Part shown: positions 4,722 through 26,941 of the stretch, in pieces
Layout of the letters: each line of letters begins with the position of its first letter
How positions within the stretch are numbered: position 1 is the first letter of the stretch
DNA from: a virus
Length of the DNA: 26,941 nucleotides
IMG/VR virus record: IMGVR_UViG_3300046369_001449
Span: 1 to 26,941 of that record
Direction: 5' to 3' (one strand)
The notes under the pieces: model-generated
What the model was told of the DNA's origin: nothing
What the model saw: the letters and a program-made list of their open reading frames with translations, nothing else
Database searches by the model: none
Translations under genes and position numbers: made by a program

Positions 4722-7700
4722 TTATCCCAATCTTTTTTTTAATTCAGAAACTTCGTTGTTTAATTCTTTTATTCCCTCTATAAGTAAAGATACTAATTTA
4801 TCATATTTTACAGCCTTGTATCCATCTGTTTTTTCTTGAACTAGCTCTGGTAATACTTTTTCTATTTCTTGTGCAATAACACCGTAGTCTTTACCTTTAT
4901 AAATATTTTGTTTTTCTTCATTCCATACGAAACTATTACCAGAAATCTGATTTATTTTTTGAAGAGGATTTTCGATTGGTTTTATATCATTTTTTAATCT
5001 CTCATCTGAAGATGCGTATGCAATTATATCATCACTTGCCTTTACAGTTCCAACTACATAAATATCATCAGATATATTGAATCTTGAGTTTGAGTGGTCC
5101 CAAGTAATTGATTCATTTGCCCCATCAATTTCAATACCTGCACCATTGGCCGCTGCAGAATCTGCAGAACCACTTGCAACTGTGATAAGTTTATCTTCAA
5201 TTTTTAATTCTGTTGAAGATATTTCAGTTGCAGAACCAAGAACTACAAAGTTACCACTTACAGTTAGATTACCTCCAAATGAACCACTATTAAATGAAAC
5301 ATCTGAAGTTGTTGATAAATTTTGGTTAATTGTATCAAGTTCTGTTTTATTTGAATGTGTATGTGTACTACCTTCTAATGAATCTATTCTTGAATCCAAT
5401 GAAGTTGATACTGCAGTTCCTACAAATAAATTATTTACTTGAGTTGAACCACTTACAACTGTTTCAGTATCTAATTTTTTCTTTGTACCTTCTAAGAAGT
5501 GAGCTGAACCAGTATCTAAGAATATACTTCTATTTTGGTCAATAGTACCACCACCATCTAAACCTTTACCACTACCAACTGTGAGAGTAGCGTGGTCTAT
5601 GTGTCTACTTGCAGTATAATTTGTAGTTTGGTTATGGTCAATTTGTGATGAACCACTAATTACTCCTTCAGTATTTAATTTTGTTTTTACTCTTAAATCA
5701 GTATAGTAAAGATTGGTTGAACCTTCTGATAAATCATCGGTATCAAATCCACTAAGTGATATTTGTGCCGAACCACTAAGTACACCTTCGGTATTTAAAA
5801 CATCTACGATTTGTGATGAACCACTTACTACCCCATCTCCGTTAATTTCTAAGTATCTTAAATCTAAAGATGAAGTTACTTGGGATGAACCACTTATTAA
5901 ACCACTTGGTAATTGAGGTGCAATACCTTGTACACCACCAACGAAGTGAGCTGAACCAGTATCTATTGAAAATACAACATCACCAACATTACCATAGTAA
6001 CCACTACCATCAGTAGAACCATCTCCAGTATGAGAAATACCTGTTCCCGATGATGGATATAAATTTGAAGAGTTTACTGATGTTATATCACCTGCACCTG
6101 CATCAATTAATGCTTGATTTACTGCATAGTTTGTTGGAATTACATTTTGGTCGTTATCAATTGAGTTAGATACATTTAAGAATGCAGCCGTACCTAAGTT
6201 TCTATATCCTACCGAACCTGCAGAACCACTAATAAGTGTTGCGGTTTCTCCAGTCCCCAATGAACTAAGAGTTGTAAGTGATAAACCATTAAATGTTGGA
6301 GAATCTGATTCTTTTAAACCCAAATCTACATTAGTACTATTTGAATTTATACTTGCTGTTACAACACCTTGGTGATTTGATGCAAATGATGAACCACTTA
6401 CAACATTATCTCCGTTAATTTCTAAGTATCTTAAATCTAAAGATGAAGTTACTTGAGAAGAGCCACTCAAAACTCCCTCTACATCTAATTTTGTTTTTAC
6501 TTTACTATCTGAATATTGATTTATTGAACTGTAATTTGTTGTTGCGGTTACATCAACTTGTGAAGAACCACTAATTACAGTTTCAGTATTTAGTACATCA
6601 ACTATTTGTGATGAACCAGATACAATACCACTTGGTAATGCACCTATATCAAAGAAATTTACTTGTTGAGATGATGTGAATACGTTATCACCATTAATTT
6701 CTAAATATCTTAAATCTAAAGATGAAGTTAGTTGAGATGAACCAGAAACAACACTACCAATTAAATCTGCCGTAATATTACCATTTGTTATGGTAAAGTT
6801 TACTGTTGATGAATCAGTTGATTGTGAAACTATATTTGAATCTCTATTTGATATATCACCAAATTCTACTTGAGATGAACCACTAAATACATTATCTCCA
6901 TTGATTTCTAAGTATCTTAAATCTAAAGATGAAGTTACTTGGGATGAACCACTTACGATTCCTCCTATTACATCACCAGTTATATTTCCATTTGTTATAG
7001 AGAAATCGATAGTACTTGAATCAGTTGATTGTGAAACTATATTTGAATCTCTGTTAGAGATATCACCAAATTCTACTTGAGATGAACCACTAAATACATT
7101 ATCTCCATTGATTTCTAAGTATCTTAAATCTAAAGATGAAGTTACTTGAGAAGAGCCAGATACAATGTTACTTCCACCAAATACAATACTTCCATGTTGA
7201 ATGTTTGTTAATTCAGAACCATCTCCTTTAAATCCAACTGATGAACTTACTTTTGCATCTAATACAAATGAAGAAGTTGCATCATCCCATTTTAATGATT
7301 TATTAGCTCCTGCAATTTCTAACCCAGCCCCATCAGCCTGAGCAGAATTTTGAGAACCACTAGCTACTGTTATTAATTTATCTTCAATTGTTAATTCTGA
7401 AGTTCCTATTTCTGTTGCTGCACCTAATACTGTTAAATCACCTGTAATTGTTACATCGCCACTTGCAGTTATATCATTGAATAATACATTTGAAGTTGTA
7501 CTAAGGTTTTGATTTATGGTATCAAGTTCTGTTTTATTTGAATGTGTATGGGAAACCCCTTCAAGAGTATCTAACCTTGAATCTAAAGATGTGGAAACAG
7601 ATGTTCCTACAAATAAATCATTAACTTGGTCAGAACCACTTACTACACCACCTAATATATCAGCTGATATAGAACCATTGGTTATGGTTATATCTATATT

Positions 7701-9078: not shown

Positions 9079-12000
9079 TTAGAATGTACCTCCATCAATT
9101 TCTCTACTTGCAACGAATGATGAACCGTTCCATTGAATTACATCTCCAGCATTTGAAGGTGTAACTGCCTCAAGTGATTTATTTGTATCGAAATAAACGA
9201 ATGAGTTAGCAGTTCCTGCATTAATTCTTAATTCTGCAGTTCCACTAATTGTTACATTTGTTCCATCATCAGTAATCAATGAGTCAACTAATAATCCACT
9301 TGAATTAGCCTTAAGTACTGTGTTAGAAGTTGGAGATGCATTTAATCTTGCAAGTTCCTTTTCACTTCCAGCTGCACCACCCTTCCAATAGTCATTAGTT
9401 CCATCCCATAGTAAAGAACCACTTATTGTATTAGGTGCCTGAGCATCAGTTACTAATAAACCAGCATCTGTTTGTGCACCTCCATAGTTAAGTTCTAATA
9501 CATTATCACCGATTTGTACAGTAGTTGAATCAACAGTTGTAGTTGTTCCTAATACTGAAAGGTTACCTGTAATTGTTGCATTTCCACCAACTGAAAGGTT
9601 TTGTTGAATAGATGCAGTTGCGATAGTTACTTCATCAGGTAAACCAACAGTTACAGTTCCACCACTACCTAAAGTTACCGAACCTCCACTTACTTCGATT
9701 TCATTATTAGTACCTTGAACAGTTAATCCAGTATTACCTTCTACAGCAGTTCCTGCAGTTGAACCATAATCAACTTCTACTGCGTTATCAACACCATTAA
9801 GTGAGATACCTGTACCAGCAACATCAGCCGCGAGTGCAGAAGCGGGAACTCCACCATTTTTGATTGTTATGTTACCACTTGAATCACCAAAGTTAGTTGA
9901 TGAGAACGAAGCAATACCTTTAACAGATGTGGAAGCATCTTGTATATTATAAGTTACAGTATCATCAGTTACTGCCGCACTTATACCAGTTCCTCCACCA
10001 AATGTAAGTGTACCAGTTGATAAACTTACAGTATCAGTACCACTATCACCTGCAATTCCTAATGTTGTTGCTATTCCTGAAAGACCGGAACCATCTCCTA
10101 CAAATGAACCACTAAATGAACCACTTGCCGTAAAGTTCTCTATATTTGCACCTTCTAATTGAGATGAACCACTAATTACACCTAAAGTATTTAAAATTGG
10201 TGTTACATTTCCAGCATCAGTTACATTTGCACTAGCCTCAATACCATCTAATTTAGATTTTAAAGTATTTGTTAAGTTGTTAGTATCCGATTCACTAAAT
10301 AATGCAGTTTTAATTTCAGCACCTGTCTGGTCAGCCGTAGCACCATTTTCAACATTTAATAAAGTTCTTACTTGAGTTGCTGAACCACTTACTACTGATA
10401 GTGAGTTAATATGGTCTGTTACATCAGAATCTCCATATTGTGCCGAACCAGCAATTGTTAATGTACCAGCTGAATCATCATATGTTAATGAGATACCAGT
10501 ACCTTCTGTTAATAATGTATTAACTCTATCATCTACTCTTTCATTTGTGTGAAATAAATTTGATGAACCTTCTGTTATATTATCAGTATTACCAGTTACA
10601 CTACCTAAAGAAACTTGACCCGAACCACTAATAACAGTTTTTGCATCCATTCTAGCATCTACATTAGAATCAAAATTCGTAATTGTATTTGCATTTACTT
10701 GAGATGAACCACTAATTACATTACCACTTACTGCGTTTGCAATTGCATCTGCAGATATAGAACCACCTAAAGATGTATCTACTCCAGCGATTGTAATTCC
10801 ATCATTTGTAAGGGATGAATTAGCAATGTTTGAAATAGTATTGTTTGAACCATTAATTGTTTTGTTAGTTAAAGTTTGTGTTCCACTTATGTTAACTAAA
10901 GCGATTTCACTTCCTTTTACACCAGCAGCCCAAAGGTCATTTGCTGAATCCCAAATTAGGGAACCAGTATCAGTATTAGGTGCAGTTGCATCTTTTACAT
11001 GGATACCACCATTTGTTGCTCCTGTTCCATTTAATTCGATGATGTTATCACCAATCTGAACAGTAGTTGAATCAACAGTTGTAGTTGTTCCTTGTACATC
11101 TAAGTTACCAACAACAGTTAAATCGTTTCCGATAGTTACATCATCTGGTAAAGAGATTGTTACTGTGTTATCTGTTACTGCGGTTGTGATTTCATTTGCA
11201 GTACCTGCGAATGTCAAAGCATTATTAATTAAATCAACAGTATCATTTCCAGTTGAACCACTAATATTTAAGTTAGTTGCTAAACCAGTTAATCCACTAC
11301 CATTACCAACGAATGAACCAGTGAAAGTTGAACCTCCATCTGCATCTCCGAAGTTATCACCACTTACTCTACCAGTTCCGAAATCGGTTGCCTGATTTGA
11401 AAGTAATGAAACGATTTGTGAAGAACCACTAACAACTGTCTCAGCATCTAATCTTGTTTTTACTCTTGCGTTTGTAAAGTATAAATTTGTACCTTCTGTT
11501 AAGTTAGTAGTACTTGAACTTGATTCATCTATAAGTTTTATCCAGCTACCACCATGTGCGAAATATCCTTTACCAGTTCCATGTACATGAGCGAACATAC
11601 CATGATAAGTTCCTGCGTTTGGTAAATCTGATTCTGCAGAGTAAACATTTGAATATAATACTTTACCTGTTGTAGTAATATTAAATGCTTGTGCATCTAA
11701 GTTACCTCCTAATTGTGGAGTTGTATCTTCTACAACATTGTTTATAGAAACTGCTTCTGCTCTTGCATTTGTAAAGTACAAGTTAGTTGAACCTTCAGTT
11801 ATTTCATCTGAATTATCTTTTGTTGCAATTTGTGTGGCAATGTATGCCTTAACAGATTGTTGTGTTGGAAATTTAGTTGCCGAATCTGATGAGAAGTTAT
11901 CTTCATCAACACCAACTAAACTAATAATTTGTGCCGAAGCAGAAACTACACTATCACCACCTGTATTTAAATATCTTGTATCAAATGCAGATGTAAGTTG

Positions 12001-12483
12001 ACCTGAACCAGAGATTACAGTTTCAGCATCTAATCTTGCTTTTACTCTTGCATTTGTAAAGTATAGGTTTGATGAATCTTCAGAAACATCTGCAGTGTTA
12101 AATCCAGTTTTATCTGCATCATTAAGAACTACTTGAGATGAACCAGAAAATATACCTGTTCCACCTGTTTGAGCGGATGCTTTAACTTCAACATTACCAC
12201 CCTTGTTTAAGATATATAGTTTTTGGTCATCTGTATCGTAGAATGGAATACCATCTACTGAAGTATCATAGGATGCACCAGTTAAGTCAGGTACAGATGT
12301 ACCTTGTAAAATTTTGTTTGCAGGAGTTGCGGTTGAACCATCAATACCTACAAATAAGAGGGAGTCTCCATTGGTAGCTGTAATTCCTGATGAACCTGTG
12401 ATTACGAGTAATTCACCCGCTCTCTTAGTTGCAGACCCAACGGTTTCTAACGCACCTCTTCTATGTTTAATAATTTGTGCCAT
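9079..12483 (-). CDS. Large tail fibre / structural protein with GMFAHVHG motif, no S74 domain
   Basis: This 1134-residue protein begins MAQIIKHRRGALETVGSATKRAGELL, the MAQ-IK adaptor with its GEL motif. Residues ~165-245 (GVDEDN, KFPTQQSVKAY, EITEGSTNLYFTNAR) and ~640-760 (NERVDDRVN, QYGDSDVTDH, QTGAEIKTALFSE) match one continuous block of the 1234-residue fibre but are separated here by ~400 residues. That insert contains, around residues 285-315, GMFAHVHGTGKGYFAHGGSW, a motif I recognise from cyanophage and other marine T4-like structural proteins. Two copies of TTTTVDSTTVQIGDN followed by a LIWD/LLWDGTNDYW step are also present, as are FVGNGSGLTGLA and FVGDGSGLSGIA. It ends IQWNGSSFVASREIDGGTF. 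Unlike the two S74 fibres it has no self-cleaving chaperone, so folding help, if needed, must come from elsewhere. The start has AAAAAGGA upstream, about 10 bases from the ATG, with a 146-base leader before it. Its position in the fibre is not known. Confidence 0.88.
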   Translation of the reverse strand: MAQIIKHRRGALETVGSATKRAGELLVITGSSGITATNGDSLLFVGIDGSTATPANKILQGTSVPDLTGASYDTSVDGIPFYDTDDQKLYILNKGGNVEVKASAQTGGTGIFSGSSQVVLNDADKTGFNTADVSEDSSNLYFTNARVKARLDAETVISGSGQLTSAFDTRYLNTGGDSVVSASAQIISLVGVDEDNFSSDSATKFPTQQSVKAYIATQIATKDNSDEITEGSTNLYFTNARAEAVSINNVVEDTTPQLGGNLDAQAFNITTTGKVLYSNVYSAESDLPNAGTYHGMFAHVHGTGKGYFAHGGSWIKLIDESSSSTTNLTEGTNLYFTNARVKTRLDAETVVSGSSQIVSLLSNQATDFGTGRVSGDNFGDADGGSTFTGSFVGNGSGLTGLATNLNISGSTGNDTVDLINNALTFAGTANEITTAVTDNTVTISLPDDVTIGNDLTVVGNLDVQGTTTTVDSTTVQIGDNIIELNGTGATNGGIHVKDATAPNTDTGSLIWDSANDLWAAGVKGSEIALVNISGTQTLTNKTINGSNNTISNIANSSLTNDGITIAGVDTSLGGSISADAIANAVSGNVISGSSQVNANTITNFDSNVDARMDAKTVISGSGQVSLGSVTGNTDNITEGSSNLFHTNERVDDRVNTLLTEGTGISLTYDDSAGTLTIAGSAQYGDSDVTDHINSLSVVSGSATQVRTLLNVENGATADQTGAEIKTALFSESDTNNLTNTLKSKLDGIEASANVTDAGNVTPILNTLGVISGSSQLEGANIENFTASGSFSGSFVGDGSGLSGIATTLGIAGDSGTDTVSLSTGTLTFGGGTGISAAVTDDTVTYNIQDASTSVKGIASFSSTNFGDSSGNITIKNGGVPASALAADVAGTGISLNGVDNAVEVDYGSTAGTAVEGNTGLTVQGTNNEIEVSGGSVTLGSGGTVTVGLPDEVTIATASIQQNLSVGGNATITGNLSVLGTTTTVDSTTVQIGDNVLELNYGGAQTDAGLLVTDAQAPNTISGSLLWDGTNDYWKGGAAGSEKELARLNASPTSNTVLKANSSGLLVDSLITDDGTNVTISGTAELRINAGTANSFVYFDTNKSLEAVTPSNAGDVIQWNGSSFVASREIDGGTF

Positions 12484-13256: not shown

Positions 13257-16200
13257 TTAAAAATCTCCAAGTGAACCACTACTTGGTAATACTTTTAATC
13301 TCATTGTTGTTCCTGAATTTTGTCCTTTTGTTCCTATTACATTCCACTCTGTAAATCCATCTTTTGCCGAATCTAACACAATAGAGTGTATTACGGTTGA
13401 AGCTACTCCTAATGGTGCACCTGTACCATCCACATATTCTACTAAAACAAATTCTCCTGCAGTACTTCCACCAAATGAATCTGTCATAGATGTTGGTACA
13501 CCACCCATTGATGAACCACTTGGGAAAACTATAATTGTTTGTACTCCATTTGCCCAACTCATAGCTCCTGCTGATGCAGATATTGCTGTATTTAAATCTG
13601 AACCACTTACTGTTGCGGCCAATGTTGCAGTTTTACTTCCTGCTAATGAAATCGTTGTACTTCCTATATCACCTGCTTTAAATTTATAATATGGTGATGC
13701 AGTATTTGCCGTATAAGCAGTTACTTCTGGTGGAGTATCACTATTTAGAGTACTACCACCCATTACTGCTAAATAGTTAGAATTAAATCCTGCAACTGTT
13801 CCATAATTTGAGTAGTAAATATAAATCTTACCATTATTTGCAGATTGGTCAACTGTTATTGTTTCACTTGTTAAAGTTACTGATTCTGAATAACTATCAG
13901 TTACAGTTATGTTAATTGTATATGTTCCTGCCGATAATGAACCAGTTGGTTGTATTTCAAATGGGGATGATGAACCACTTACATCAAATTTACCACCATC
14001 TGTTCCCGCGAGCGTGATTGTGAACGGTGAATTCGATTCCGTATCTGATACTATCAATGAACCTGCATCAGAACCACTCGTTGAGTTATCACTTTCATAA
14101 TTCGATGATGATACAAATGAAGCTGCTGGTGATTGATTACCAAATAAAGTTGCAGTTACCGAACCACTTCCTATATTTCCATATTGGTCTGAGAATGTTA
14201 TTGTAGAACTTATATTATCTCCACTTTGAGTTACAGAACCACTTAAATCTAAACCTAATGTTAAATTACCACTATTATCAATAGAAATTGCCTGATTTGA
14301 AGAAGTAAATGATTGAACCACAGGTGAACCATATGATGGTGAGTAAGATACACTTACTTGTGCCGTATTTCCATTGTTATATCCAGTTGCATCTCTGAAT
14401 ACATCTCCACTTTCGGCAGATTCTATAATATAGATAGAAGTATCACCACCAAGTGTTCCTAAATCAGATTGTGCAATCGTTATTGTATGTCCTTCTGTAT
14501 TTGTTCTGAAAGAATGTACATCATCTACCGATGAACTGAATGTATAATTTGATGCACTTAGTTGTGAGTTTGCAGTTACTAACCAAGTATTAGAATTTTG
14601 TGTAAATGTTAATTGATTTGATGAATCTGAGAAGGTTACACCATCATAATCAATACCATCCGACTCAGTATCACTAAATGTTAATGTTACCAATGTTCCA
14701 CCTGAACCAGTTGCCTGGTTTGTATTCAATATAGATGAATTACTAAATGTAATATCAGGTGCATTGTTTGTTGTTACATTCACCGATATACTTCCACTTC
14801 CTATATTTCCATATTGGTCCGCGAAGGTGATATTTGATGAAATAACATCTCCACTTAATTGACCACTACCACTAATGTTAGTACCAACAGATAAGTTACC
14901 ACTTGAATTTACATCAATCAATGCATTTGAAGAAGTAAATGATTGTACAACTTGTGAACCATAGTTTGGTGAGTAAGAAACTGATAAATCTCCTTGTGTT
15001 CCTGTTCTACCATTTGAATTTGTTACTATGTTGTTACCATTTACAGCAGATTCTATAACATAGAATGTACCATTTGTACCTAAAGTACCTATATCCGCTT
15101 GAGAAATAGTTAATGTTCTATCATATGATGATGATTTACCAAAATTATCAAAAACATTGAGTGTATAATTGTAAGTTTGAGCAGATAAATTAGATGCCGC
15201 TTGAATATCAAGTGATGATGAGTTTGAATTGTTATATTGTAATTGGAATGATGAAGCATCTGTACCACTTAATGATGATGAGTATGGAGTATCTCCCTCA
15301 GTATCAGTAATTGTTACATTTACTAAATCAGTACCAGTTGTTGCTTCGTTTGAATTTAAATCACCAGTTACATCTGTGAAAGATGCACTTGGATGGTGAT
15401 TATCAAATACATTTACAGTTACATTACCAGTATCTATGTTACCATATTGGTCTGAGAATGTTATAGTTGATGTTATCGTATCTCCACTACCAGTAGTTGA
15501 ACCACTTATATTCAATCCAAGTGTTAAATTACCACTATTATCAATAGAAATCGCCTGATTTGATGATGTGAATGATTGAACAACAGGTGAACCGAATGAA
15601 GTTGAGTATGAAACTGAAACTTGTGAAGTATTTCCTCCACCAAATCCACTTGCATCTCTAATTGAATCACCACTTTGACCAGATTCTATAATATATGATG
15701 TGGTATCTCCACCAAGTGTACCATTATCTGCTTGTGCAATGGTAAATGAACCACTTTCTTTGTTTGTTCTGAATCCATGAACATCTTGAAGTGATGACGT
15801 ATATGAATATGTACCAGCAGGTACTGAAGTATTGTTTACTAATAACTTCATTGATGGAGTTGATATAGAAGGAGTGAAATAAGTTGTATTATATCCCTCA
15901 AAACTCAATCCACTATTAGGTATCGAATCACTTTCGGTATCTGATATAGATAAAGATAGTATTTCTTCTGAACCAGTTGCCTGATTTGTGTTTAAATTAG
16001 AAGTTGATGTTGAACTTATAGTTGGTGCTTCGTTTGTAGTTACACTCACACTTAAGCTATCAGTAGTTGTTGTACCAAATGTGTTTGTAAATGTAATTAC
16101 TGAATCAATTGTATCACCACTACCAGTACTTGAACCACTTATATCCAATCCTATCGATAAATTACCATTTGAATTGATTGAAATTGATGGTTTTGATGAT

Positions 16201-19200
16201 GACCATGTACCACTTTGGTTAGAACCATAATCTGCCTGTGTTCCTGTTCTACCATTTGAATTAACTCTAACTAAATCATTACTAACCGATGATTCTATTA
16301 TATACGGACCTGCTGACCAGTTATCTGAAAGTGTTGCTGGTGTATCATCATCGATGTTTATTGTAATTAACCCTACTGCAGAATCTGTATTGTAAGAATC
16401 AGTTACTTGAACTCTATAAATGTATCTGTTTATTAAATCTGAATTTATATAAACACCTGTTTTTCTTGTTATCACACCACTTGAACTCATTTGGAATGGA
16501 TTTTCGTGTGGGTCTGTTAATTGTGATGAACCACCATAAGAACCACTTGAAACATTACTACCATCTAATAGAATTTGGTGTAATTCAAAGTTTTTAAATG
16601 TTATTGTATCACCTTCACTATCAGCAGATGATATAGTTCCAACAGTTGCCCCATTTGAACTATTCTCATTGATAGAAGATAGTGTTTGGTTGTTTACAGT
16701 TGGTGTTGCGTTATCAACAACATTAACAGTAATAGGTAAAGTTGCTATAGAATCCGAATCTTGTCCTGCTTCATAGTGTTCATCTGATGCGGATATACTA
16801 AATGTATAAGTTGTTTGTGATTCATAATCCAATGAACCTGTATTTTGTCTAATATCAACATAAGTTGAGTATTTTGTTATATCAAAGTGGTTGTTATCAA
16901 TAGAAGATGAGTGAATTGTAATAGTATCTCCATTTGCATCTGTAAAATATACTCTTTTTACCAAAGTATCATTAGCTGAACTTTCGTTTAAGTTAGAAGT
17001 TACTGATGTTATGATATTTCCACTTGTAGAAGTTTCTCTAAATACTGGTGTTGAGTTTGGAGTTACAAAAACAGTAATATCTTTTTCAACAGTTGAGTTA
17101 AATGTATCAGTTGCTGTTGCGGTAAAGGTATGTCCATGTACTCCACCAACTAAATCAGTATTAAATGATGATGATTCTGCTAATGCATTTAAAGTTAGAA
17201 CACCATTTGATGCAACTCTAACTAAATCATCAGTATATGAAGAAGCTGTACCAAATGAAAGTGTTTGTCCTTCAGGGTCTGTTCCTGCAATAGTTACAAT
17301 CGTTGTACTACTTGGTGTATATTCTGCAATTGTTTGATTACCAGTTGTAATTGAGGGTGAACTATTTGGATAAAATACAGCATTTAAAAAATCTGTTATA
17401 GAACCACTTGTACCAGGATTAAATGATGCTGAAAACAATTGTGGTAATTTATCTTGTGATACGATTCTATTTCCATCAAAATCTGTTGAACCTCCACTTG
17501 AACCACTTAATGCATATCTTATATCATAAGAAGATGTTAATTGTGAAGAACCACTTATTGTACCACTTGGTATTTCTGTTTTAGAACCACTTAGTAATCC
17601 ACTTGGAAGTGAAGTAATATACGATGAAGTTACTGCACTTAAACCATCAACTTCTGTTTGTATTGATGATGTAAATGTGTTAAGTGATGAAATATCTGTT
17701 TTAGAACCACTTAAAATACCAGTTCCATCAGTTGAGAATGATTCTGATATGAATCCTAATGATGTTATTTGTGCAGAACCACTAATTGTTCCTTCAGGTG
17801 TGTTATCTCCACTACTACTTACAAATCCTAATGATGTAATTTGAGCCGAACCACTAATTACACCTGTTGGTAGAGCATTTGTAGTATCAATTGATATTAC
17901 CCAATATCCATCATAATAAACATAGAGGTTACCATCATCAGATTTCCACCATAAATCACCTTCAGATGGTAAATTTGGTGCAGAATCAGAAACAGTTACA
18001 TTTGAACTACCTCCACTTGCAGAAGATGATATAATATAGTTACTACCATCTACATTTATTGTTATATTTTCACCAGCAACTATCGAACCACTAAATACAC
18101 CATCAGAATCTAACTTAGATTTTATAGTTGAATCGATTGATGATGTAAATGTTTCAAGAGCCGTTAATCTTTGTCTACTTGAAGTGTAATGATTTGCAAA
18201 TGCCGTATCATTTGTTGTATCTGTTGAATTTACTAAGTTTACAATCTCTACAAATTGGTCATAATCTGAGTTTGCTCCACTTAATATATTATCTATTCTT
18301 GTTTTTTCGGTATCAATCCTTGAATCAATGGATGAACTAAATGAACCACTTACTACTCCACTTGGAATTGATGTTAAATACGATGAGGTTTGAGAAGATA
18401 TTGCATCTACTTCGGTTTGTATTGAACTTGTAAAAGTATTTAGTGAATCAATTAATGAAGCATCACTTCCACTTACATCAGATGCACTAATTGTGATAAT
18501 TCCACTACCAGAAGTAATTGTTACATTCGTACCACCAACCAACGAACCACTTATAACATCAGTTCCATCTAAATTCCTTAGTACAGAACCACTTACTACT
18601 CCACTTGGAATTGATGTTAAATAAGATGATGTTTGTGAAGATATTGCATCTACTTCTGTTTGTATTGATGAAGTAAATGTATTAAGTGATGAAATATCAG
18701 TTGAACTACTCTGAGATATAAAACCTAATGATGTTATTTGAGCCGAACTACTAATTGTTCCACTTGGTAATTGTGATTCTATCGAACCACTAAGTACATT
18801 TGTTCCATCTAAAGTTCGTAATACCGAACCACTAACTATACCAGTTCCATCTGTTGAAAATGATTCGGATATGAATCCAAAATCAGTTATTTGTTGAGAT
18901 GAGGATATTATTCCCTCTGGTAGTAAAACAATTATTTGTCCTGAACCAGATACAAGTCCACTTGGAATATTTTGTAAATTTGTTGACCAATCTGCTCCTG
19001 CACCACCTGCAGAAATACCTGTTATTCTTGAATCAACTGATGAACTAAATGATGTAAAGGTTGAACCACTTATGATTCCACTTGGGATACCACTTAGTTC
19101 ACTCCACGAGGATGCTCCACCACCACTTCCAGTCGGTATAGTTATAGTATTACCACTTGAGATTGTAAGTTGGTCTCCAACAATAGAAAGTATTTGAGAA

Positions 19201-19487
19201 TCAGAGCCAGTATCATCTGTTGCTCCTAAATCATTAGAAATAGTATATGTACCACCAACTTCTTGAATTGTAATACCAGTACCTCCAATAAAACTTGGTG
19301 TACCTTGTACATCAGTATATCTAACACCATATATTGGGCCAGAGGAAGAAATAGATGATGCAGTTATGTTACCAAAAATGGAATTTGAACCGGTTGCGAT
19401 AAACGAACCAGAAACTTTAAATTCCCCTTCAATAACTGAAGCGGTTACTACACCTTGTATCTGTTTACTTGCAATTAAAGTTGCCAT
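13257..19487 (-). CDS. Giant structural / adhesin-like fibre protein with tandem cadherin/Ig-like domains
   Basis: This 2076-residue protein is the longest in the window. Residues ~1-690 are SGS-rich fibre repeats: SGSSQLTSSYDIRYALSGSS, three copies of SLNTFTSSIQTEVD...TSSY, and at ~499-530 APNLPSEGDLWWKSDDGNLY, a motif known from marine phage structural proteins. Residues ~707-1045 hold three cadherin-like domains, with DANGD and LDYE...SASD resembling calcium-binding cadherin motifs. Residues ~1058-1880 are four tandem ~210-residue units, each starting Y(I/V)IES and containing GNL(T/S)(L/V)G, SGD and DQYGNI (diverged in the first unit). The last ~195 residues (from KIYIYYSNYG) form a separate domain ending SGSLGDF, with no S74 chaperone. 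It begins MATLIASKQIQGVVTASVIEG, with TAA-T-ATG coupling to the gene before it and no clear ribosome binding site. Position right after the neck operon suggests a tail- or head-attached fibre. Cell-surface or polysaccharide binding by the Ig-like stack is inferred. Confidence 0.88.
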   Translation of the reverse strand: MATLIASKQIQGVVTASVIEGEFKVSGSFIATGSNSIFGNITASSISSSGPIYGVRYTDVQGTPSFIGGTGITIQEVGGTYTISNDLGATDDTGSDSQILSIVGDQLTISSGNTITIPTGSGGGASSWSELSGIPSGIISGSTFTSFSSSVDSRITGISAGGAGADWSTNLQNIPSGLVSGSGQIIVLLPEGIISSSQQITDFGFISESFSTDGTGIVSGSVLRTLDGTNVLSGSIESQLPSGTISSSAQITSLGFISQSSSTDISSLNTFTSSIQTEVDAISSQTSSYLTSIPSGVVSGSVLRNLDGTDVISGSLVGGTNVTITSGSGIITISASDVSGSDASLIDSLNTFTSSIQTEVDAISSQTSSYLTSIPSGVVSGSFSSSIDSRIDTEKTRIDNILSGANSDYDQFVEIVNLVNSTDTTNDTAFANHYTSSRQRLTALETFTSSIDSTIKSKLDSDGVFSGSIVAGENITINVDGSNYIISSSASGGSSNVTVSDSAPNLPSEGDLWWKSDDGNLYVYYDGYWVISIDTTNALPTGVISGSAQITSLGFVSSSGDNTPEGTISGSAQITSLGFISESFSTDGTGILSGSKTDISSLNTFTSSIQTEVDGLSAVTSSYITSLPSGLLSGSKTEIPSGTISGSSQLTSSYDIRYALSGSSGGSTDFDGNRIVSQDKLPQLFSASFNPGTSGSITDFLNAVFYPNSSPSITTGNQTIAEYTPSSTTIVTIAGTDPEGQTLSFGTASSYTDDLVRVASNGVLTLNALAESSSFNTDLVGGVHGHTFTATATDTFNSTVEKDITVFVTPNSTPVFRETSTSGNIITSVTSNLNESSANDTLVKRVYFTDANGDTITIHSSSIDNNHFDITKYSTYVDIRQNTGSLDYESQTTYTFSISASDEHYEAGQDSDSIATLPITVNVVDNATPTVNNQTLSSINENSSNGATVGTISSADSEGDTITFKNFELHQILLDGSNVSSGSYGGSSQLTDPHENPFQMSSSGVITRKTGVYINSDLINRYIYRVQVTDSYNTDSAVGLITINIDDDTPATLSDNWSAGPYIIESSVSNDLVRVNSNGRTGTQADYGSNQSGTWSSSKPSISINSNGNLSIGLDISGSSTGSGDTIDSVITFTNTFGTTTTDSLSVSVTTNEAPTISSTSTSNLNTNQATGSEEILSLSISDTESDSIPNSGLSFEGYNTTYFTPSISTPSMKLLVNNTSVPAGTYSYTSSLQDVHGFRTNKESGSFTIAQADNGTLGGDTTSYIIESGQSGDSIRDASGFGGGNTSQVSVSYSTSFGSPVVQSFTSSNQAISIDNSGNLTLGLNISGSTTGSGDTITSTITFSDQYGNIDTGNVTVNVFDNHHPSASFTDVTGDLNSNEATTGTDLVNVTITDTEGDTPYSSSLSGTDASSFQLQYNNSNSSSLDIQAASNLSAQTYNYTLNVFDNFGKSSSYDRTLTISQADIGTLGTNGTFYVIESAVNGNNIVTNSNGRTGTQGDLSVSYSPNYGSQVVQSFTSSNALIDVNSSGNLSVGTNISGSGQLSGDVISSNITFADQYGNIGSGSISVNVTTNNAPDITFSNSSILNTNQATGSGGTLVTLTFSDTESDGIDYDGVTFSDSSNQLTFTQNSNTWLVTANSQLSASNYTFSSSVDDVHSFRTNTEGHTITIAQSDLGTLGGDTSIYIIESAESGDVFRDATGYNNGNTAQVSVSYSPSYGSPVVQSFTSSNQAISIDNSGNLTLGLDLSGSVTQSGDNISSTITFSDQYGNIGSGSVTATLFGNQSPAASFVSSSNYESDNSTSGSDAGSLIVSDTESNSPFTITLAGTDGGKFDVSGSSSPFEIQPTGSLSAGTYTINITVTDSYSESVTLTSETITVDQSANNGKIYIYYSNYGTVAGFNSNYLAVMGGSTLNSDTPPEVTAYTANTASPYYKFKAGDIGSTTISLAGSKTATLAATVSGSDLNTAISASAGAMSWANGVQTIIVFPSGSSMGGVPTSMTDSFGGSTAGEFVLVEYVDGTGAPLGVASTVIHSIVLDSAKDGFTEWNVIGTKGQNSGTTMRLKVLPSSGSLGDF
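13830..16312 (-). repeat. Four tandem ~625-base repeats encoding Ig/cadherin-like units
   Basis: Units begin near 16310, 15690, 15062 and 14434 (gene direction), each marked by a plus-strand ATTCTAT(A/T)A(T/C)A landmark encoding Y(I/V)IES. Each unit has about 207-210 residues and two beta-sandwich-like halves. Units 2 and 4 are most alike, sharing GSPVVQSFTSSNQAISIDNS. Units 1 and 3 both have VNSNGRTGTQ. This alternating pattern suggests that a two-unit block was duplicated. Confidence 0.85.
18340..18690 (-). repeat. Direct repeat pair in the N-terminal part of the 2076-residue gene
   Basis: Near-identical ~100-base segments at about 18340-18440 and 18590-18690 encode SIQTEVDAISSQTSSYLTSI plus PSGVVSGS. 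A third, more diverged copy lies near 17590-17690 (TEVDGLSAVTSSYITSLPSG). Confidence 0.82.
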
Positions 19488-21906: not shown

Positions 21907-23058
21907 TTATCCTACATAAATATTTAATGGAACTCGAGTCATTACTTGTTGTTGTTGTTCAACCATAGCTGCCTCATTCTCCATTCTTTGTTTTTTACTT
22001 ACCTCATTCAGATTCTCTCTTAATTGTTCAACAAGAGCATCTTTTTCTGTTTGTGCTTCAGCTCTTAATGCTGCACCATCTAAAGAAACTTCTGAACCTG
22101 GTATAGGAACAGTTGAATATTTTTCTCTAACTGCACCTAACATCTCTTTTGCCAAAGCGAGTGTATATTTTCGTATCCATTGTTTACCAACATCATTTAT
22201 TTTAGTATATTCAGCAAAATTATATCCTACGTTTGAGTAATCTGATACTACATTAGGAGTTATGATTGTTGAATTTTCTCTTCTATCTTTTACAACTTGA
22301 TATTCAAACCATAAAGGGTAAGATGTTGTTGGTTTTGGAAATATTTGTAATTTATTGTTTACTATATTAAATGTATGTGCTGATTTTCTGATTTGGTCGT
22401 TGAATTCAATCTGTTGAATCCTTAACATATCCTCATAAATTGGCATCAAGATAAATTGTGCCGCTGGTGAGAATGAACCGAAACCAAATTCATCAATCAA
22501 GTTAAGAGTTCCTTGTCCACTTACTGAGTATGGGTCAAAGAATCTTTGAATTGCTGGAGTTGATTCGTAAAATACTTTCGTTACATCAATTCTTTCTCCA
22601 CTTTCAGAAACATCTGCAAATAAGGTTTGTAAATCGTATTCTTGAGAACCAGTACCAACTGTAATATAATCTTTCTTTATATCAGTTCTACCACCAACAT
22701 TAGCAAAATTACCATAGGTTTCTGCTATTGTTGCTATATTATTAAGTTCCGAACCAATTACTGATTGACCAGTATAATTAGAACCAGTTGCCTGTCCTTC
22801 TAATGCTCCGAGGTTATTTCTTATATTAAATTGGTTTACTTGAGATGAGTATTCACTCACTGCTTCTTCAAATACCGCAAAGAAATTATCACCTTCTAAT
22901 TCAACATCTATAATAGGATATCCTAATCGTTTAGCACACCAAGATGCAACTTTTGGTGCATCTGTTTGAAATAATGAATCAGAATCATAAATTCCAAATG
23001 GTGTTGATGAACCAGAAGTAAATGATGATGTTCCTGTCCACACTCTTGCTTGAGACAT
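21907..23058 (-). CDS. 13: Neck protein, T4 gp13-like
   Basis: This is a 383-residue protein. The segment VASWCAKRLGYPIIDVELEG at ~38-57, followed by FFAVFEEAVSEYSSQVNQF, matches the pattern F..WC...LG.PVI.VE......F..A.EY seen at the start of gp13 in T4-like phages. Further on are SQEYDLQTLF at ~138-147, RIDVTKVFYES, a central FSPAAQFILMPIYEDMLRIQ stretch, then LWFEYQVVKDRREN. The C-terminal helical region has WIRKYTLALAKEMLGAVREK with PIPGSEVSLDG and a Gln-rich stretch (VEQQQQVM). Gp13 sits at the portal and, with gp14, closes the head. The start has a strong AAAGGAG six bases from the ATG. A terminator and the octamer motif lie upstream, so this gene probably opens the neck operon. Confidence 0.82.
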   Translation of the reverse strand: MSQARVWTGTSSFTSGSSTPFGIYDSDSLFQTDAPKVASWCAKRLGYPIIDVELEGDNFFAVFEEAVSEYSSQVNQFNIRNNLGALEGQATGSNYTGQSVIGSELNNIATIAETYGNFANVGGRTDIKKDYITVGTGSQEYDLQTLFADVSESGERIDVTKVFYESTPAIQRFFDPYSVSGQGTLNLIDEFGFGSFSPAAQFILMPIYEDMLRIQQIEFNDQIRKSAHTFNIVNNKLQIFPKPTTSYPLWFEYQVVKDRRENSTIITPNVVSDYSNVGYNFAEYTKINDVGKQWIRKYTLALAKEMLGAVREKYSTVPIPGSEVSLDGAALRAEAQTEKDALVEQLRENLNEVSKKQRMENEAAMVEQQQQVMTRVPLNIYVG

Positions 23059-23092
23059 ATATTTTTCTCCTTTACTTATACAATTATACTCT

Positions 23093-23207: not shown

Positions 23208-24839
23208 CTATAAGTTAGATAAATCTTTAACATAGATTTTACCATAGAATTCTGGTCTTACCATTTTCTTAGCGTATCTAGTCATTACACCTCTTCTTGG
23301 TGTAAAGTTAGTTGGGTCATATACAAGAGGAGTCATGATTAATGGTACATACGGTGCATATACAGCTCCAGTTTCAAGGAAGTTACTTCCTTTAAATCCT
23401 AATAAGATTTCGTTAGAAGTCATATAAGGGTTTTTGTAAACTGTGTATCTGTTTGCAATAGAACCAACAGTAGTTACACCAGCTGCGAAAGATGAAGCAT
23501 CTTTATCAGCAGATACAGTAAATCCTGGGATAGATTCTAAAATAGTACATACATCAGGAGAAGCAACTACGAAGTTAGCACCACCTCTTAAAGTTAATTG
23601 GTGAATCTTGTTCGAAACTTTGTTAAGTTTAGCACCTAAAGTCTGGAACCAAGAGTTCTTAGTGTAAGCTGCAGAGTTAGAACCAGCTAACCATACATTT
23701 TGGATTGAATCAAACTCTTCACCTAAAGTTACTGACCAGTATTCAGTTGTTAATGCGTTAGACTTTAACATATCTAAGATTTCTAAGTCAATCTCTAATG
23801 AGATATACTCAGATAACATAGAAGTTAATTCAGCCTCAGCATCAATACTGTGGTAAGCATTTAAATCTTGAGCTAATTCAGGTGTCCATACAGCCTTAAG
23901 TTTTCTAGTCTTAGCAACAATTGCCTCTGACTTCAACTCAAGGTCAACTTCTGGAATTTCTAAATCGAATCCAGATGCTGATGAATTTGAACCAAGTGCG
24001 TTACCTTTAGCTTCGAAATCACCTCTATCAGATGCAACTGGTTGCTCTGAGAAGTAGATGTTATCGATAGTTGAAGGGTCACTAGCACCTACTGCAATCT
24101 TCACGATAAATGCAACGTTAGTTCCATCTTCTGAAGTGTGTGCAGGATAGTAATCAGTAATTGCTGAATCAGCGATTCTGAAACTTCTTACTGCATCAAA
24201 ATCAGCGTTTGATAAATCAGATTTAGCAACTTCTACTTTTGCTAATGTTCCAGCTGCGATTGAAGCTGAAAGTGATGAATCATAAGATACATCAGCTAAT
24301 GAAGCTGAATCCCATGATACAGTTGATTTACCTGCAGCTGCAGTTTCGTTTAGAGTATATCCAAACGCACCGTCTCCGTAAAGACCGTTTTCAGCTTGTT
24401 TTGTTTGACCAAAACCAGCGTCAATAGTAGCACCACCAGCACCACCAAATAAAGAACCAGCTGCACCATCACTTCTACCAGCTTGGCCATTAGTTCCATA
24501 TTTAAAGTCTAAGTAAAATATTAGACCTGAAGGTAAGTTCATTGGTTGTACACTAACGAATTCTTTCGATGCAATTTCACCGAAGATTCTTCTTACTAAT
24601 GGAAGGGCTACCCCACTCCATTCTTCACTACCCGCTGATGTTCCAGTCGAAGTAGCTTCATCAAGCAATTGTTTTGCTTGGTTTTCTAACAATACAGAAA
24701 TCTGTGATTGTTCTCTTTCTCCTAAACCTTCAAGAAGTCCAGTTTGTTCCCATTTTCCTTTAAGCTCTCTTGTTTCAGCAAGCATTACAGACTGTGGGTT
24801 CTTTCCTTCCATCAATTTAGATAAATCAAAATTTGCCAT
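23208..24839 (-). CDS. 23: Major capsid protein, T4 gp23-like
   Basis: At 543 residues it is close to T4 gp23 (521). Collinear landmarks: ILVLLENQAKQLLDE-like N-terminal helix (~47-61); VRRIFGEIASKEFVSVQPMN at ~81-100, where T4 has VRRAIPNL..F.ICGVQPMN; LDFKYGT; SMLSEYISLEIDLEILDML; NFVVASPDVCTILESI; and near the end YKNPYMTSNEILLGFKGSNF, GAVYAPYVPL, DPTNFTPRRGVMTRYAKK. The protein forms the hexamers of the elongated head. T4 gp23 is cut by the gp21 protease after ...LTE; here QLLDE ending at Glu61, followed by ATSTGTSAG, is the equivalent (L/I)xE site, so mature capsid would begin near Ala62 (inference). AAGGAG lies 8 bases before the ATG, a strong initiation site. It lies 23 bases after gp22, as in T4, where 22 also precedes 23. 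Confidence 0.96.
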   Translation of the reverse strand: MANFDLSKLMEGKNPQSVMLAETRELKGKWEQTGLLEGLGEREQSQISVLLENQAKQLLDEATSTGTSAGSEEWSGVALPLVRRIFGEIASKEFVSVQPMNLPSGLIFYLDFKYGTNGQAGRSDGAAGSLFGGAGGATIDAGFGQTKQAENGLYGDGAFGYTLNETAAAGKSTVSWDSASLADVSYDSSLSASIAAGTLAKVEVAKSDLSNADFDAVRSFRIADSAITDYYPAHTSEDGTNVAFIVKIAVGASDPSTIDNIYFSEQPVASDRGDFEAKGNALGSNSSASGFDLEIPEVDLELKSEAIVAKTRKLKAVWTPELAQDLNAYHSIDAEAELTSMLSEYISLEIDLEILDMLKSNALTTEYWSVTLGEEFDSIQNVWLAGSNSAAYTKNSWFQTLGAKLNKVSNKIHQLTLRGGANFVVASPDVCTILESIPGFTVSADKDASSFAAGVTTVGSIANRYTVYKNPYMTSNEILLGFKGSNFLETGAVYAPYVPLIMTPLVYDPTNFTPRRGVMTRYAKKMVRPEFYGKIYVKDLSNL

Positions 24840-24862
24840 TTTTTTATCTCCTTAATAATTTG

Positions 24863-26119
24863 TTAATTAATGTTAGCAAGTTTTTTGAATCTTTCTGCCA
24901 TCACATTAGTTGATTCAGTAATTACTTCCTTTTTAGGAGCAGTACTTGCAACTGGTTTAGATGCGAATGATTCGTTAATTTTCTTACTTGATTTTACTCT
25001 TTTTGTAGTTCCATTAATCTTGAAACTCTCAGCTAATGTTGAGAATACAAGTTTAACTTCTCTTACGTTACCAGTTCTGTCTAATGTTTCAACAACTTTC
25101 ATTTTCTGGTCGTTGTTTAAGTCATAAGACCTGAACAATTTGTTTGTGTAAAGTAATTTTGCGTTTAACAAGTTAACTTCATTGATAGTAGATTTAAGTT
25201 CCTTGATAGTAGACATTGCCTCTTCCAATTCAGCTTTAACCTCTTCGATTTCGTTACCTTCTTCAACACCTTCTTCATCAGATTCTTCTTCATCTTCAGA
25301 AATATCACCATAACCCATCTCTTTTAAGATTTCGTTAAGGTCAATTTCTTCATCTAAATCTTCATCTTCAGATACTTCTTCTTCTACCTCTTCATCGTGA
25401 GTTTCTTCACCTTCAGAGTGTCCGTATCCTTCTTCGTGTTTCTCATCTTCATGAGAACCAACAGCGTCATCAGCGATATCTTCAACTTCTTCCTTTTCTT
25501 CATCATCAAGTTCTTCTTCAACTTCAGCTTCTTCTTCGTGAGAATCTTCTTCAAGTTGTGATTCAAGTTCTTTAATGATTGATTCAAGGTCAAGTTCGTC
25601 ATCATCTGACTCTTCTTCAGAAACAACATCTTCTTCACCTTCAGAGTTGTAAGCACCTTCTTCAACTTCCTCACCTTCAGAATCTTCTTCTTCTGTGATT
25701 TCGTCTCCTTCAGTTACTTCTTCTCCTTCAGCGATTTCTACGTTGTCATCTTCTTTCCCAACCTCAGAAGATTCAACTTCTGTATCAGGATTTCCTTGAG
25801 CTATGTCTGATGATGAGTTAGCGTCATCTGCTGGAGATTTATTTTCTCCATCACCAATATCAGATGCATCTCCATCAGGAGCATCATCCTTATCGTACTC
25901 TTCATTAACTTCTTCTTCTTCGGTTACAGCAGTAGTTTCTTCTACTTCTTCCTTTTCCTCATCACCTTCTTCAATTTCTTGTTGAAGTTTTTGAGAAAGG
26001 ATAGATTGTAATCTTGGAGTGAAAGCCTCTTCAAGAGCGATTTTAGCATTAGCGATAGCAGTTTCACGAACAGCTTTAGCATCAGCGATAGCTTCTTTTA
26101 ACAAATTTGAATTTGCCAT
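24863..26119 (-). CDS. 22: Prohead core / scaffold protein, T4 gp22-like, highly acidic
   Basis: This is a 418-residue protein. Residues 1-47 are helical (MANSNLLKEAIADAKAVRET, ALEEAFTPRLQSIL). Residues ~48-285 are extraordinarily rich in Glu and Asp. The C-terminal third has a coiled coil (EVKAELEEAMSTIKELKSTI), then LLNAKLLYTNKLFRSYDLNN, KMKVVETLDRTGNVREVKLV and a basic KRVKSSKK segment, ending ERFKKLANIN. The conserved N- and C-terminal parts and position directly before gp23 identify it as the scaffold around which the capsid shell assembles and which the gp21 protease then degrades. It is much longer than T4 gp22 (269 residues) because of the acidic middle. Several LEE and IxE-type sites could serve as cleavage points. 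AAAGG lies 8 bases before the ATG, after a long leader. The acidic stretch makes the coding strand strongly purine-rich. Confidence 0.9.
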   Translation of the reverse strand: MANSNLLKEAIADAKAVRETAIANAKIALEEAFTPRLQSILSQKLQQEIEEGDEEKEEVEETTAVTEEEEVNEEYDKDDAPDGDASDIGDGENKSPADDANSSSDIAQGNPDTEVESSEVGKEDDNVEIAEGEEVTEGDEITEEEDSEGEEVEEGAYNSEGEEDVVSEEESDDDELDLESIIKELESQLEEDSHEEEAEVEEELDDEEKEEVEDIADDAVGSHEDEKHEEGYGHSEGEETHDEEVEEEVSEDEDLDEEIDLNEILKEMGYGDISEDEEESDEEGVEEGNEIEEVKAELEEAMSTIKELKSTINEVNLLNAKLLYTNKLFRSYDLNNDQKMKVVETLDRTGNVREVKLVFSTLAESFKINGTTKRVKSSKKINESFASKPVASTAPKKEVITESTNVMAERFKKLANIN

Positions 26120-26212
26120 AATAGTTACCTTTCGTTTTGTTTCGTGAAAATATTAAGGGATTTTCAATAAGATTAGTTTTCAAGGTTTTTTTGGTCACCT
26201 CACATAAGAATC

Positions 26213-26256
26213 GTGGGTATTCATTAACCTAAGTATAAACCCACATTAGGTGGGTT
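26213..26256 (-). other. Leader structure between bS21 and gp22: hairpin or alternative pseudoknot
   Basis: A hairpin AACCCAC/GTGGGTT with a 5-base loop lies at 26238-26256. It competes with a second arrangement: GTGGGT at 26213-26218 can pair with ACCCAC at 26239-26244, and ACCTAA at 26227-26232 with TTAGGT at 26246-26251. These two helices cross, as in an H-type pseudoknot. Only a short U stretch follows the simple hairpin, so it is a poor terminator. The region lies in the leader of gp22, and could act in attenuation, mRNA stability or protein binding. Confidence 0.45.
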
Positions 26257-26292: not shown

Positions 26293-26598
26293 TTATTTTT
26301 TATTAGATTTATTTTTATCTTGTGTTTTAGAACCTTTTTTCTTTTTTCTTTTTTTAGTAGGTAAACTTACTTTTGTATTACCTTCTGAAATTTTATCAAG
26401 TATAGTAAGTTTATATTGTTCTCTAACAGCTTGTTGTTTTTGTTTTCTTCGGATGGTTGTGGGTTTTATGTAGTATTTTCTTTCTCTTAATTCCAAAAGG
26501 TGACCCGAATCCATAACACCTCGTTTAAACTTTTTAAGTGCTCTGTTAATATCTCCTTTGATAACTTTAACAGAAACTAATTTTTTACCTTTACTCAT
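26293..26598 (-). CDS. rpsU: Phage-encoded small-subunit ribosomal protein bS21
   Basis: This is a 101-residue protein. Residues ~8-65 match the bS21 family: VKVIKGDINRALKKFKRGVM followed by DSGHLLELRERKYYIKPTTI and RRKQKQQA. The cellular pattern is VRENE..D.ALRRFKR...KAGVL.E.R.REFYEKPT..RKR....A. Bacterial bS21 is ~57-75 residues; this one has an extra ~30-residue Lys-rich tail (KKRKKKKGSK). In the ribosome bS21 sits on the 30S platform near the 3' end of 16S rRNA and the mRNA Shine-Dalgarno helix, and it can leave and rejoin the subunit. Phage bS21 genes have been described in SAR11 phages and in many uncultivated viruses, and such proteins can replace the host copy. Here it lies among head genes, just before gp22, so it is probably made late. 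Its AAAGGAG is only one base from the ATG, and no other start fits because an in-frame TAA precedes it. Confidence 0.92.
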   Translation of the reverse strand: MSKGKKLVSVKVIKGDINRALKKFKRGVMDSGHLLELRERKYYIKPTTIRRKQKQQAVREQYKLTILDKISEGNTKVSLPTKKRKKKKGSKTQDKNKSNKK

Positions 26599-26606
26599 TC
26601 TCCTTT
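26599..26606 (-). promoter_or_regulatory. Ribosome binding site of bS21 with abnormally short spacing
   Basis: In gene direction AAAGGAG is followed by a single A and then ATG. Other genes here have 6-10 bases between the purine-rich site and the start (gp13, gp14, gp22, gp23). An in-frame TAA upstream and the absence of nearby alternative starts make this ATG the only candidate. Confidence 0.7.
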
Positions 26607-26644
26607 ATTTAGTGTAACAATTATAAGTATATATATTTTATTTT

Positions 26645-26941
26645 TTAAGAACCTTTACCAGTTCCACTTTTTCTTCCTTTTGTATGTGTAGAAACATTAA
26701 TAGGTTTTTTACCCTGTCCTGCAGATGATTTACCACCTCTATTGGATTTGTTTTGTGCTGCTCTTTTTCTACGAGTTGCAGATTCTTTTTCTTTTTTACT
26801 CATAGATGCGGCTTTCTTGGCAGGAACACATTTAGCATATCCTTTTTTCTTACCACTTGTACCACATGGAGGATGTTTACCACTTTTATCTTTTTTACCG
26901 ATATTAACCCACTTGGATTTAAACCAGTTTCTCAAATCTTC
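26645..26941 (-). CDS. Small Lys-rich, Cys-containing protein (5' end outside window)
   Basis: The frame is open to the right edge. An in-frame TTG at 26935 is possible, but the two codons before it (Glu, Asp) continue the frame, and proteins of this type usually begin with a Met followed by E-D-L-R. So the true start is probably just outside the window. At least 98 residues are present. The N-terminal part has EDLRNWFKSKWVNIGKKDK, then HPPCGTSGKKKGYAKCVPA with Cys in PCG and KCV, then KAASMSKKEKESATRRKRAA and a Gly/Lys/Ser-rich tail. I recognise the W..KW..I......CG.......KCVP....SMSK.E....RRK pattern from small proteins of T4-like marine phages and some algal viruses (DUF5872-like, from memory). 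Function unknown; the basic tail suggests nucleic-acid binding, and the paired Cys may bind metal. It ends 46 bases before bS21. Confidence 0.82.
   Translation of the reverse strand, partial: EDLRNWFKSKWVNIGKKDKSGKHPPCGTSGKKKGYAKCVPAKKAASMSKKEKESATRRKRAAQNKSNRGGKSSAGQGKKPINVSTHTKGRKSGTGKGS

Follow-up and report, generated by a model that had tools for sequence, protein, structure and literature searches.

The stretch of DNA analysed here (the window) is a 26,941-base IMG/VR virus record from a T4-like phage, a 27-kb fragment that holds structural genes only. Its minus strand encodes a gp22-like scaffold, the gp23 capsid protein, a neck protein and long fibres, and on the same strand as gp22 and gp23 lies a gene for ribosomal protein bS21 (rpsU-like). 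The features around this gene, listed in the direction of transcription, are:

26645–26941, minus strand: small basic Lys/Gly-rich protein just 5′ of bS21, incomplete at the window edge (relatives have 114 aa)
26613–26618, minus strand: GTTACA element upstream of bS21, perhaps a transcript start, with GTTACA/GTTATA variants in many relatives
26599–26610, minus strand: AAATAAAGGAGA leader, with A at −3, −6, −10, −11 and −12, delimited by column conservation
26600–26606, minus strand: AAAGGAG, Shine-Dalgarno-like by sequence, 1 nt from the ATG
26293–26598, minus strand: bS21 gene, 101 aa
26422–26424, minus strand: codon of Arg59, which a MAFFT alignment to the 7jil chain matches with Tyr54 of F. 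johnsoniae bS21
26296–26385, minus strand: Lys-rich C-terminal tail, residues 72–101, predicted to be unstructured, after the helix ending at 71
26238–26256, minus strand: hairpin 3′ of bS21 (AACCCAC-CTAAT-GTGGGTT), a possible terminator from its fold
24863–26119, minus strand: acidic gp22-like scaffold downstream of bS21, with AAAGGT at 26127–26132
23208–24839, minus strand: gp23 major capsid protein, 3′ of the scaffold, from its matches to major capsid proteins
21907–23058, minus strand: neck protein, whose orthologue in a 276-kb relative matches the PHROG head-tail adaptor Ad2

The initial annotation of this DNA had recognised a bS21 with an added Lys-rich tail, placed among late head genes between a small basic protein and the scaffold, and each of these points is borne out. 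The protein matches Pfam PF01165 (Ribosomal_S21) with E = 3.3e-16 and 54.2 bits (cut-off 27), sequence comparison with the PDB yields bS21 proteins (E. coli-type chains at E about 1e-6, F. johnsoniae at 1.3e-5), and its relatives in IMG/VR are 45–78% identical. Structure prediction, which the annotation had proposed as a check, gives the two-helix architecture of bS21 (helices 17–31/33–39 and 46–71; mean pLDDT 75), with the tail (residues about 72–101) lying beyond the helix end. A Foldseek search with the AlphaFold model returned weak bS21m matches (best E 0.06) and added little. Upstream of bS21 is the small basic protein, and downstream come the gp22-like scaffold and then gp23. The gene thus sits inside a terminase-portal-protease-capsid region, of which gp22 and gp23 are in the window, and TerL, portal and protease in the 276-kb relative (G002, the contig of locus L003). 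The 68-nt stretch with the hairpin after bS21 folds at −12.6 kcal/mol (z −1.25). Elsewhere in the window, positions 342–4046, 4722–8918, 9079–12483 and 13257–19487 encode very long, repetitive, fibre-like proteins with many SGSSQV repeats; two of the window's long fibre-like proteins end in a DERLKDNI-type chaperone-like domain.

A single A, at 26599, separates AAAGGAG from the ATG of bS21 (26598–26596), as had been noted at the outset. The Shine-Dalgarno (SD) sequence forms 7 bp with the Bacteroidota 16S tail, at −9.1 kcal/mol. The accompanying statement that other genes have spacings of 6–10 nt holds for gp23 (AAGGAG at 24848–24853, 8 nt from the ATG, −8.2 kcal/mol) and for the neck gene (AAAGGAG at 23067–23073, 8 nt, −9.6 kcal/mol), but several window genes have a weak SD or none. 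No other start codon is available to bS21, as there is no in-frame ATG, GTG or TTG upstream or near downstream, and the start position is fixed by relatives that swap ATG for GTG at the same spot (four of the 42 contigs with 1-nt spacing). These contigs come from a scan of IMG/VR with the bS21 protein and then with an alignment, which found relatives in 80 contigs; in 42 contigs, the window included (34 distinct proteins), GGAG ends exactly 1 nt before the bS21 start. A search for this short spacing in other phage bS21 genes had been suggested, with normal spacing in related phages named as a refuting outcome; in the relatives the short spacing is conserved, so that this check did not refute the idea.

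Among 33 distinct leaders, AGGAGA (−6 to −1) is invariant, as are A−10 and A−11. A−3 and A−6 are present in all and A−12 in 91%, positions −7 to −9 vary (AAA, ATT or TTA), and conservation from −14 to −30 is only 36–79%. The conserved block spans the start codon and extends into codons 2–3. In the flanking genes of the same loci (n = 325), GGAG lies at 4–11 nt in 135, farther away in 2, and at 1 nt in 5, which belong to two other gene families. The rpsU leaders with GGAG that we sampled from Bacteroidota have spacings of 6–14 nt, and the 1-nt spacing occurs in none of the sampled leaders. Masking of the start by RNA structure was rejected, as the leader folds no better than shuffled sequences (z 0.61). 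Starts in F. johnsoniae rely on A−3, A−6, A−12 and A−13 (PMC8710568), and the A residues of the AAATAAAGGAGA leader resemble SD-independent Bacteroidia starts. With A−3, A−6 and A−12 present and no unusual structure, the leader looks startable without an SD.

Two observations concern sequences near these starts. A GTTACA-like element also precedes bS21 in loci L065, L074, L104 and L122, from several clades, at 2–23 nt from the start; in L074 it is so near the ATG that a transcript starting there could have almost no leader. As a genome-wide promoter GTTACA was discarded, with no enrichment in G002 (6/116 intergenic stretches). In L036 (also L037, L046 and L047), GGTGGAGG abuts the assigned ATG of a head-cluster gene 2 kb upstream of bS21 (MEEMLINERF...); it lies within the overlap with the preceding gene, and the start may be mis-assigned.

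The 3′ tail of 16S rRNA is held in Bacteroidia ribosomes by bS21 together with bS18 and bS6, with Tyr54 of bS21 stacked on A1534; in F. johnsoniae, a Y54A change or loss of bS21 frees the anti-Shine-Dalgarno (ASD), and reporters with a strong SD then rise about 3-fold (PMC9976891). Arg59 of the window bS21 aligns with this Tyr54 (MAFFT, F. johnsoniae chain of 7jil), and all 42 contigs with 1-nt spacing have Arg, none an aromatic residue, at the position (hereafter residue 54). Tyr54 is found in 33 of the 37 rpsU genes sampled from Bacteroidota and Ignavibacteria, and an aromatic residue in 33/35 of those from Bacteroidia (32 Tyr, one His). Three sampled rpsU genes have Arg54, two of them from Ignavibacteria, which lie outside Bacteroidia. 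Since Chen et al. found an aromatic residue in all 61 of their phage bS21 proteins (PMC9723584), the Arg54 clade differs from the phages of that study. The single His54 contig in our collection (L339, IMGVR_UViG_3300002520_000085) was set aside, its bS21 and leader being equal to those of a bacterial genome (L393); it is probably bacterial.

We scored SD use at each bS21 locus by pairing the 20 nt upstream of the flanking genes with the 16S tail ACCUCCUUUCU in ViennaRNA duplexfold. The SD excess is this pairing energy minus that of shuffled windows, which replaced mock windows inside the preceding genes. Its mean was −2.55 for Arg54 (n = 89), −2.66 for Ala54 (6) and −1.58 for Lys54 (8), against −0.25 for Tyr54 (27) and +0.03 for Trp54 (2). 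Collapsed into 70% clusters, all loci gave a mean of −1.99 for 25 non-aromatic clusters versus −0.10 for 6 aromatic ones (p = 4e-4). Where a capsid gene lies in the flank, the two classes separate completely, though over few independent lineages: 84 non-aromatic loci range from −4.41 to −0.78 and 10 Tyr54 loci, which form two bS21 clusters, from −0.70 to +0.37 (p = 1.3e-7). As the Tyr54 loci come from few lineages, this result establishes an association between residue 54 and SD use, not a number of separate evolutionary events; both traits might follow from differences between hosts. For reference, the window has an SD excess of −2.8, as do T4 late genes, and the cultured Flavobacteriia phages FCL-2 (−0.01), phi14:2 (−0.20) and immuto (−0.19) have none. 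A link between this bS21 and ASD access, which the initial annotation had drawn by analogy, fits strongly with Arg at the Tyr54 position and with the SD association.

Some loci depart from the pattern or stand beside it. Loci L061, L081 and L104 have Arg54 and no SDs nearby, and bS21 there lies away from head genes; in the contig of L061 (G013), SDs are found on capsid, neck and sheath genes. Loci L074–L076 were considered as an independent reversal, with Tyr54 within the Arg54 bS21 group and no SDs nearby, but are not counted as evidence because their contigs yielded no capsid gene. In the first 50 kb of the Bacteroides phage crAss001 (NC_049977), the SD excess is −1.0, with 26% of genes at −6 or below; no bS21 is annotated in this part, and simple ASD masking leaves the excess unexplained. 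Another phage (L107 and L113–L116) has a Tyr54 bS21 (L107, 6001–6192) preceded by a normal, host-like SD, TAGGAGATTATATTA-ATG, at −9.6 kcal/mol and 9 nt; perhaps it has copied rpsU-type autoregulation.

The distribution of SDs within genomes was examined in G002, taken whole with PHROG gene names, and in other contigs to which gene classes were passed from G002 by phmmer. In G002, SD pairing is −5.62 kcal/mol for structural and −0.70 kcal/mol for non-structural genes (p = 5e-8). Values for structural genes include TerL −5.5, protease −7.0, sheath −7.8 and neck −7.7; among the others are thymidylate synthase +2.0, SbcC +0.9, ribonucleotide reductase 0.0 and DNA polymerase −3.1. The split runs in the same direction in G010, G011 and G012 (each p < 0.01) and in G016 (p 0.046), and is not significant in G013, G017, G018 and G020 (G020 p 0.10). 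G018 and G020, which have Arg54, N-terminally extended bS21 proteins and T9SS domains, carry SDs more evenly on structural and other genes. Late-only SDs are not a T4-like habit, because the early and middle genes of T4, whose host uses SDs, have an excess of −1.7. The proposal that host ribosomes are remodelled for late mRNAs, also made at the outset, gains specific support from residue 54 and the late/early split. As to the ends of G002, the same 110-aa reading frame start is found at both (1106–1438 and 275053–275385), which hints at a terminal repeat or at a circular genome of about 274 kb, although no second copy of the first 50 bases is present.

Within this pattern bS21 is the odd gene out. 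We compared, by pairing energy, 65 distinct bS21 genes that encode a non-aromatic residue 54 and lie close to a capsid gene with their 683 neighbours. A normally spaced strong SD precedes none of the 65 but 384 of the neighbours (56%; p = 2e-22), a short-spaced one 32/65 versus 16/683 (p = 2e-26), and no SD is found before 33/65 and 283/683, respectively. This excess of short-spaced SDs, together with the conservation of the leader, rules out chance as the source of the 1-nt spacing. The absence of a normal SD is what would be expected if synthesis of bS21 has to precede the release of the ASD. It also accounts for the persistence of a compressed SD, which would give unconverted ribosomes no advantage and could get in the way of converted ones.

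Indications of the host come from relatives and point to Bacteroidota, which we presume to be the host group of the window phage as well. The GroEL of G002 is placed inside Bacteroidota, beside Flavobacteriia (100/82), a placement made uncertain by its long branch, and T9SS sorting domains occur in the Arg54 contigs G018 and G020. Intergenic stretches of G010 are enriched in promoter-like TATATTTG motifs and in GTATATTTGG-like motifs that include TAnnTTTG, the Bacteroidota −7 element. Capsid relatives include Flavobacterium phage immuto (50%). The bS21 itself gave no host, because a pattern scan of genome contigs returned no bacterial relatives of it. We also note that the promoter-like motifs TTTTCGTATATTTA / TTCGTATATTTGGAAA and the motif TATATTTATA are strongly enriched between genes of G002 and G010, and could yield transcription classes, and that two short records labelled Listeria phage (OR847531, OR848244) have a bS21 gene and are perhaps host DNA.

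From these observations we propose, with a probability of about 0.55, that the phage bS21 converts SD-blind Bacteroidia ribosomes into SD-reading ones and thereby favours late messages. Host ribosomes would ignore SDs while their own bS21 (Tyr54), with bS18 and bS6, keeps the 16S 3′ tail away. The phage protein keeps the bS21 core and has Arg at the Tyr54 position, where SD-using bacteria have a basic residue. Lacking a usable SD, its mRNA would be translated by unconverted host ribosomes through the A-rich, SD-independent route; the product would then displace host bS21 on 30S subunits and leave the ASD free. Converted ribosomes would prefer well-placed SDs, which virion genes have and replication genes lack. 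In the clade of the window, AGGAGA may further pair with the ASD of a converted ribosome, keep the start codon off the P site and so damp bS21 synthesis: if the SD helix took up its normal position, roughly codon 3 (AAA) and not the AUG would come to lie in the P site. This shut-off by a mis-spaced SD is the less certain half of the proposal, and we hold it only tentatively, at somewhat under an even chance. It would not be universal, since no SD precedes half of the Arg54 bS21 genes. The residue, its association with SD use, the late/early split, the lack of normal SDs on bS21 and the conserved 1-nt spacing are seen in the sequences; the host of the window phage, the exchange on the ribosome, the release of the ASD and the shut-off are inferred. 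That all the parts are right together (a one-step switch, SD-tagged virion mRNAs favoured over SD-less host and early mRNAs, and self-shut-off) is a shade more doubtful again.

The chief rival to a switch is that the hosts of Arg54 phages already use SDs, and that phage bS21 and phage SDs simply match them. We regard this as unlikely, although the C-terminal half of the phage protein is like that of SD users (E. coli-type chains match slightly better), Ignavibacteria, outside Bacteroidia, have Arg54, and SDs are spread more broadly in G018 and G020. The main argument against it is the late/early contrast: the DNA-metabolism genes of the same genomes lack SDs, unlike those of T4. Furthermore, GroEL in G002 and T9SS domains in G018 and G020 point to Flavobacteriia and Bacteroidota, respectively, and Bacteroidia, as sampled, almost always have an aromatic residue 54. 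The same contrast bears on another idea, that phage bS21 just tops up or replaces host bS21 with mRNA choice unchanged, the late SDs being historical. As far as it is described where it is cited (PMC9723584), the bS21 of HTVC008M enters E. coli ribosomes with no change in selectivity shown, which would agree with this idea; nonetheless it seems improbable to us, given that SDs are kept on late genes, are absent from DNA-metabolism genes in several genomes and are avoided on bS21.

Two further alternatives concern the leader. AGGAGA-ATG might be an operator, with a phage protein or bS21 itself as the repressor, or an initially transcribed region, its likeness to an SD being incidental. T4-like phages do use operators that overlap starts, such as the targets of RegA, and here too the start codon lies within the conserved block, which reaches codons 2–3, and a GTTACA-like element lies at a similar upstream distance in many relatives. 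Yet the invariant core is exactly the part complementary to the ASD, positions −7 to −9 next to it vary, and sister clades with SD-free leaders have no such operator-like block, so that we consider this reading distinctly unlikely. The remaining alternative is close to the autoregulation suggested in the initial annotation: a positive sensor, in which the compressed SD is better translated by ribosomes that lack bS21, as in F. johnsoniae, where bS21-less ribosomes prefer the SD-bearing rpsU (PMC9976891). The SD is indeed a conserved part of the leader, and Tyr54 phages such as that of L107 have a host-like SD at 9 nt. However, autoregulation of F. johnsoniae rpsU needs an extended SD of 9–13 bp, below −13 kcal/mol (PMC9976891), and the 7 bp and −9.1 kcal/mol found here fall short of this, although the two energies come from different programs. 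The 1-nt spacing is likewise far from the 6–14 nt of GGAG-containing host rpsU genes; the window bS21 thus has neither an extended SD nor a spacing usable for initiation, and half of its Arg54 relatives have no SD at all. Nor would the loop close, because a product with Arg54 would not be expected to cover the ASD again. Pairing too weak for the rpsU threshold, an unusable spacing and a product without the masking residue make a sensor of the F. johnsoniae type a poor fit and the least probable of the readings. More plausible is a block that comes into force after the ASD has been released.

Both phage bS21 and the hiding of the ASD are already known. Sequestration of the ASD was reportedly treated by Jha et al. 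in 2021. The nearest relation is to F. johnsoniae rpsU (McNutt et al. 2023, PMC9976891), where bS21 likewise governs ASD access, with which the SD of its own gene is connected. There, however, the SD is extended and normally spaced and the product re-masks the ASD, whereas in the window phage the SD is short, at 1 nt, and the product lacks Tyr54. The jumbo phages of Chen et al. 2022 (PMC9723584) likewise have Bacteroidota hosts, late expression and bS21 next to genes for terminase, portal, protease and capsid, and substitution of their bS21 into host ribosomes was proposed too. Their bS21 proteins are aromatic at 54, with an inferred host-like function, and are encoded on the opposite strand, whereas the window phage has Arg54, bS21 on the head-gene strand and SDs on head genes; SDs on late genes are, as far as we found, not mentioned there. 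Viral bS21 and the hypothesis of hijacked initiation are shared with earlier studies of phage ribosomal proteins (Mizuno et al. 2019, PMC6375957; Al-Shayeb et al. 2020, PMC7162821), neither of which named a residue or an mRNA signal. Al-Shayeb et al. tied missing SDs to phage S1 domains, and the bS21 extensions in their phages are N-terminal, not C-terminal as in the window. The Microcystis phage Mel-JY01 (PP395634) resembles the window phage in having bS21 between prohead protease and capsid genes, with Lys at 54 and an SD excess of −2.0 in the bS21 neighbours; it differs in that its reported cyanobacterial host may use SDs anyway, and in the weaker bS21 SD, at 9 nt. In the literature covered, mostly papers outside subscription, we found no prior statement of a link between residue 54 and SDs or of late-only SDs.

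The presence of bS21 in phages calls for an explanation, and it is debated whether ribosomes that differ in composition choose different mRNAs. The clade described here offers a clean natural test, in that residue 54 covaries with the SD signal and, inside individual genomes, the SD marks late but not replication genes. If the proposal is true, these phages would make a viral specialised ribosome through a known molecular lever, the masking of the ASD, for which an assay is ready in F. johnsoniae, and it would explain why a Shine-Dalgarno sequence is conserved at a site where it should fail.
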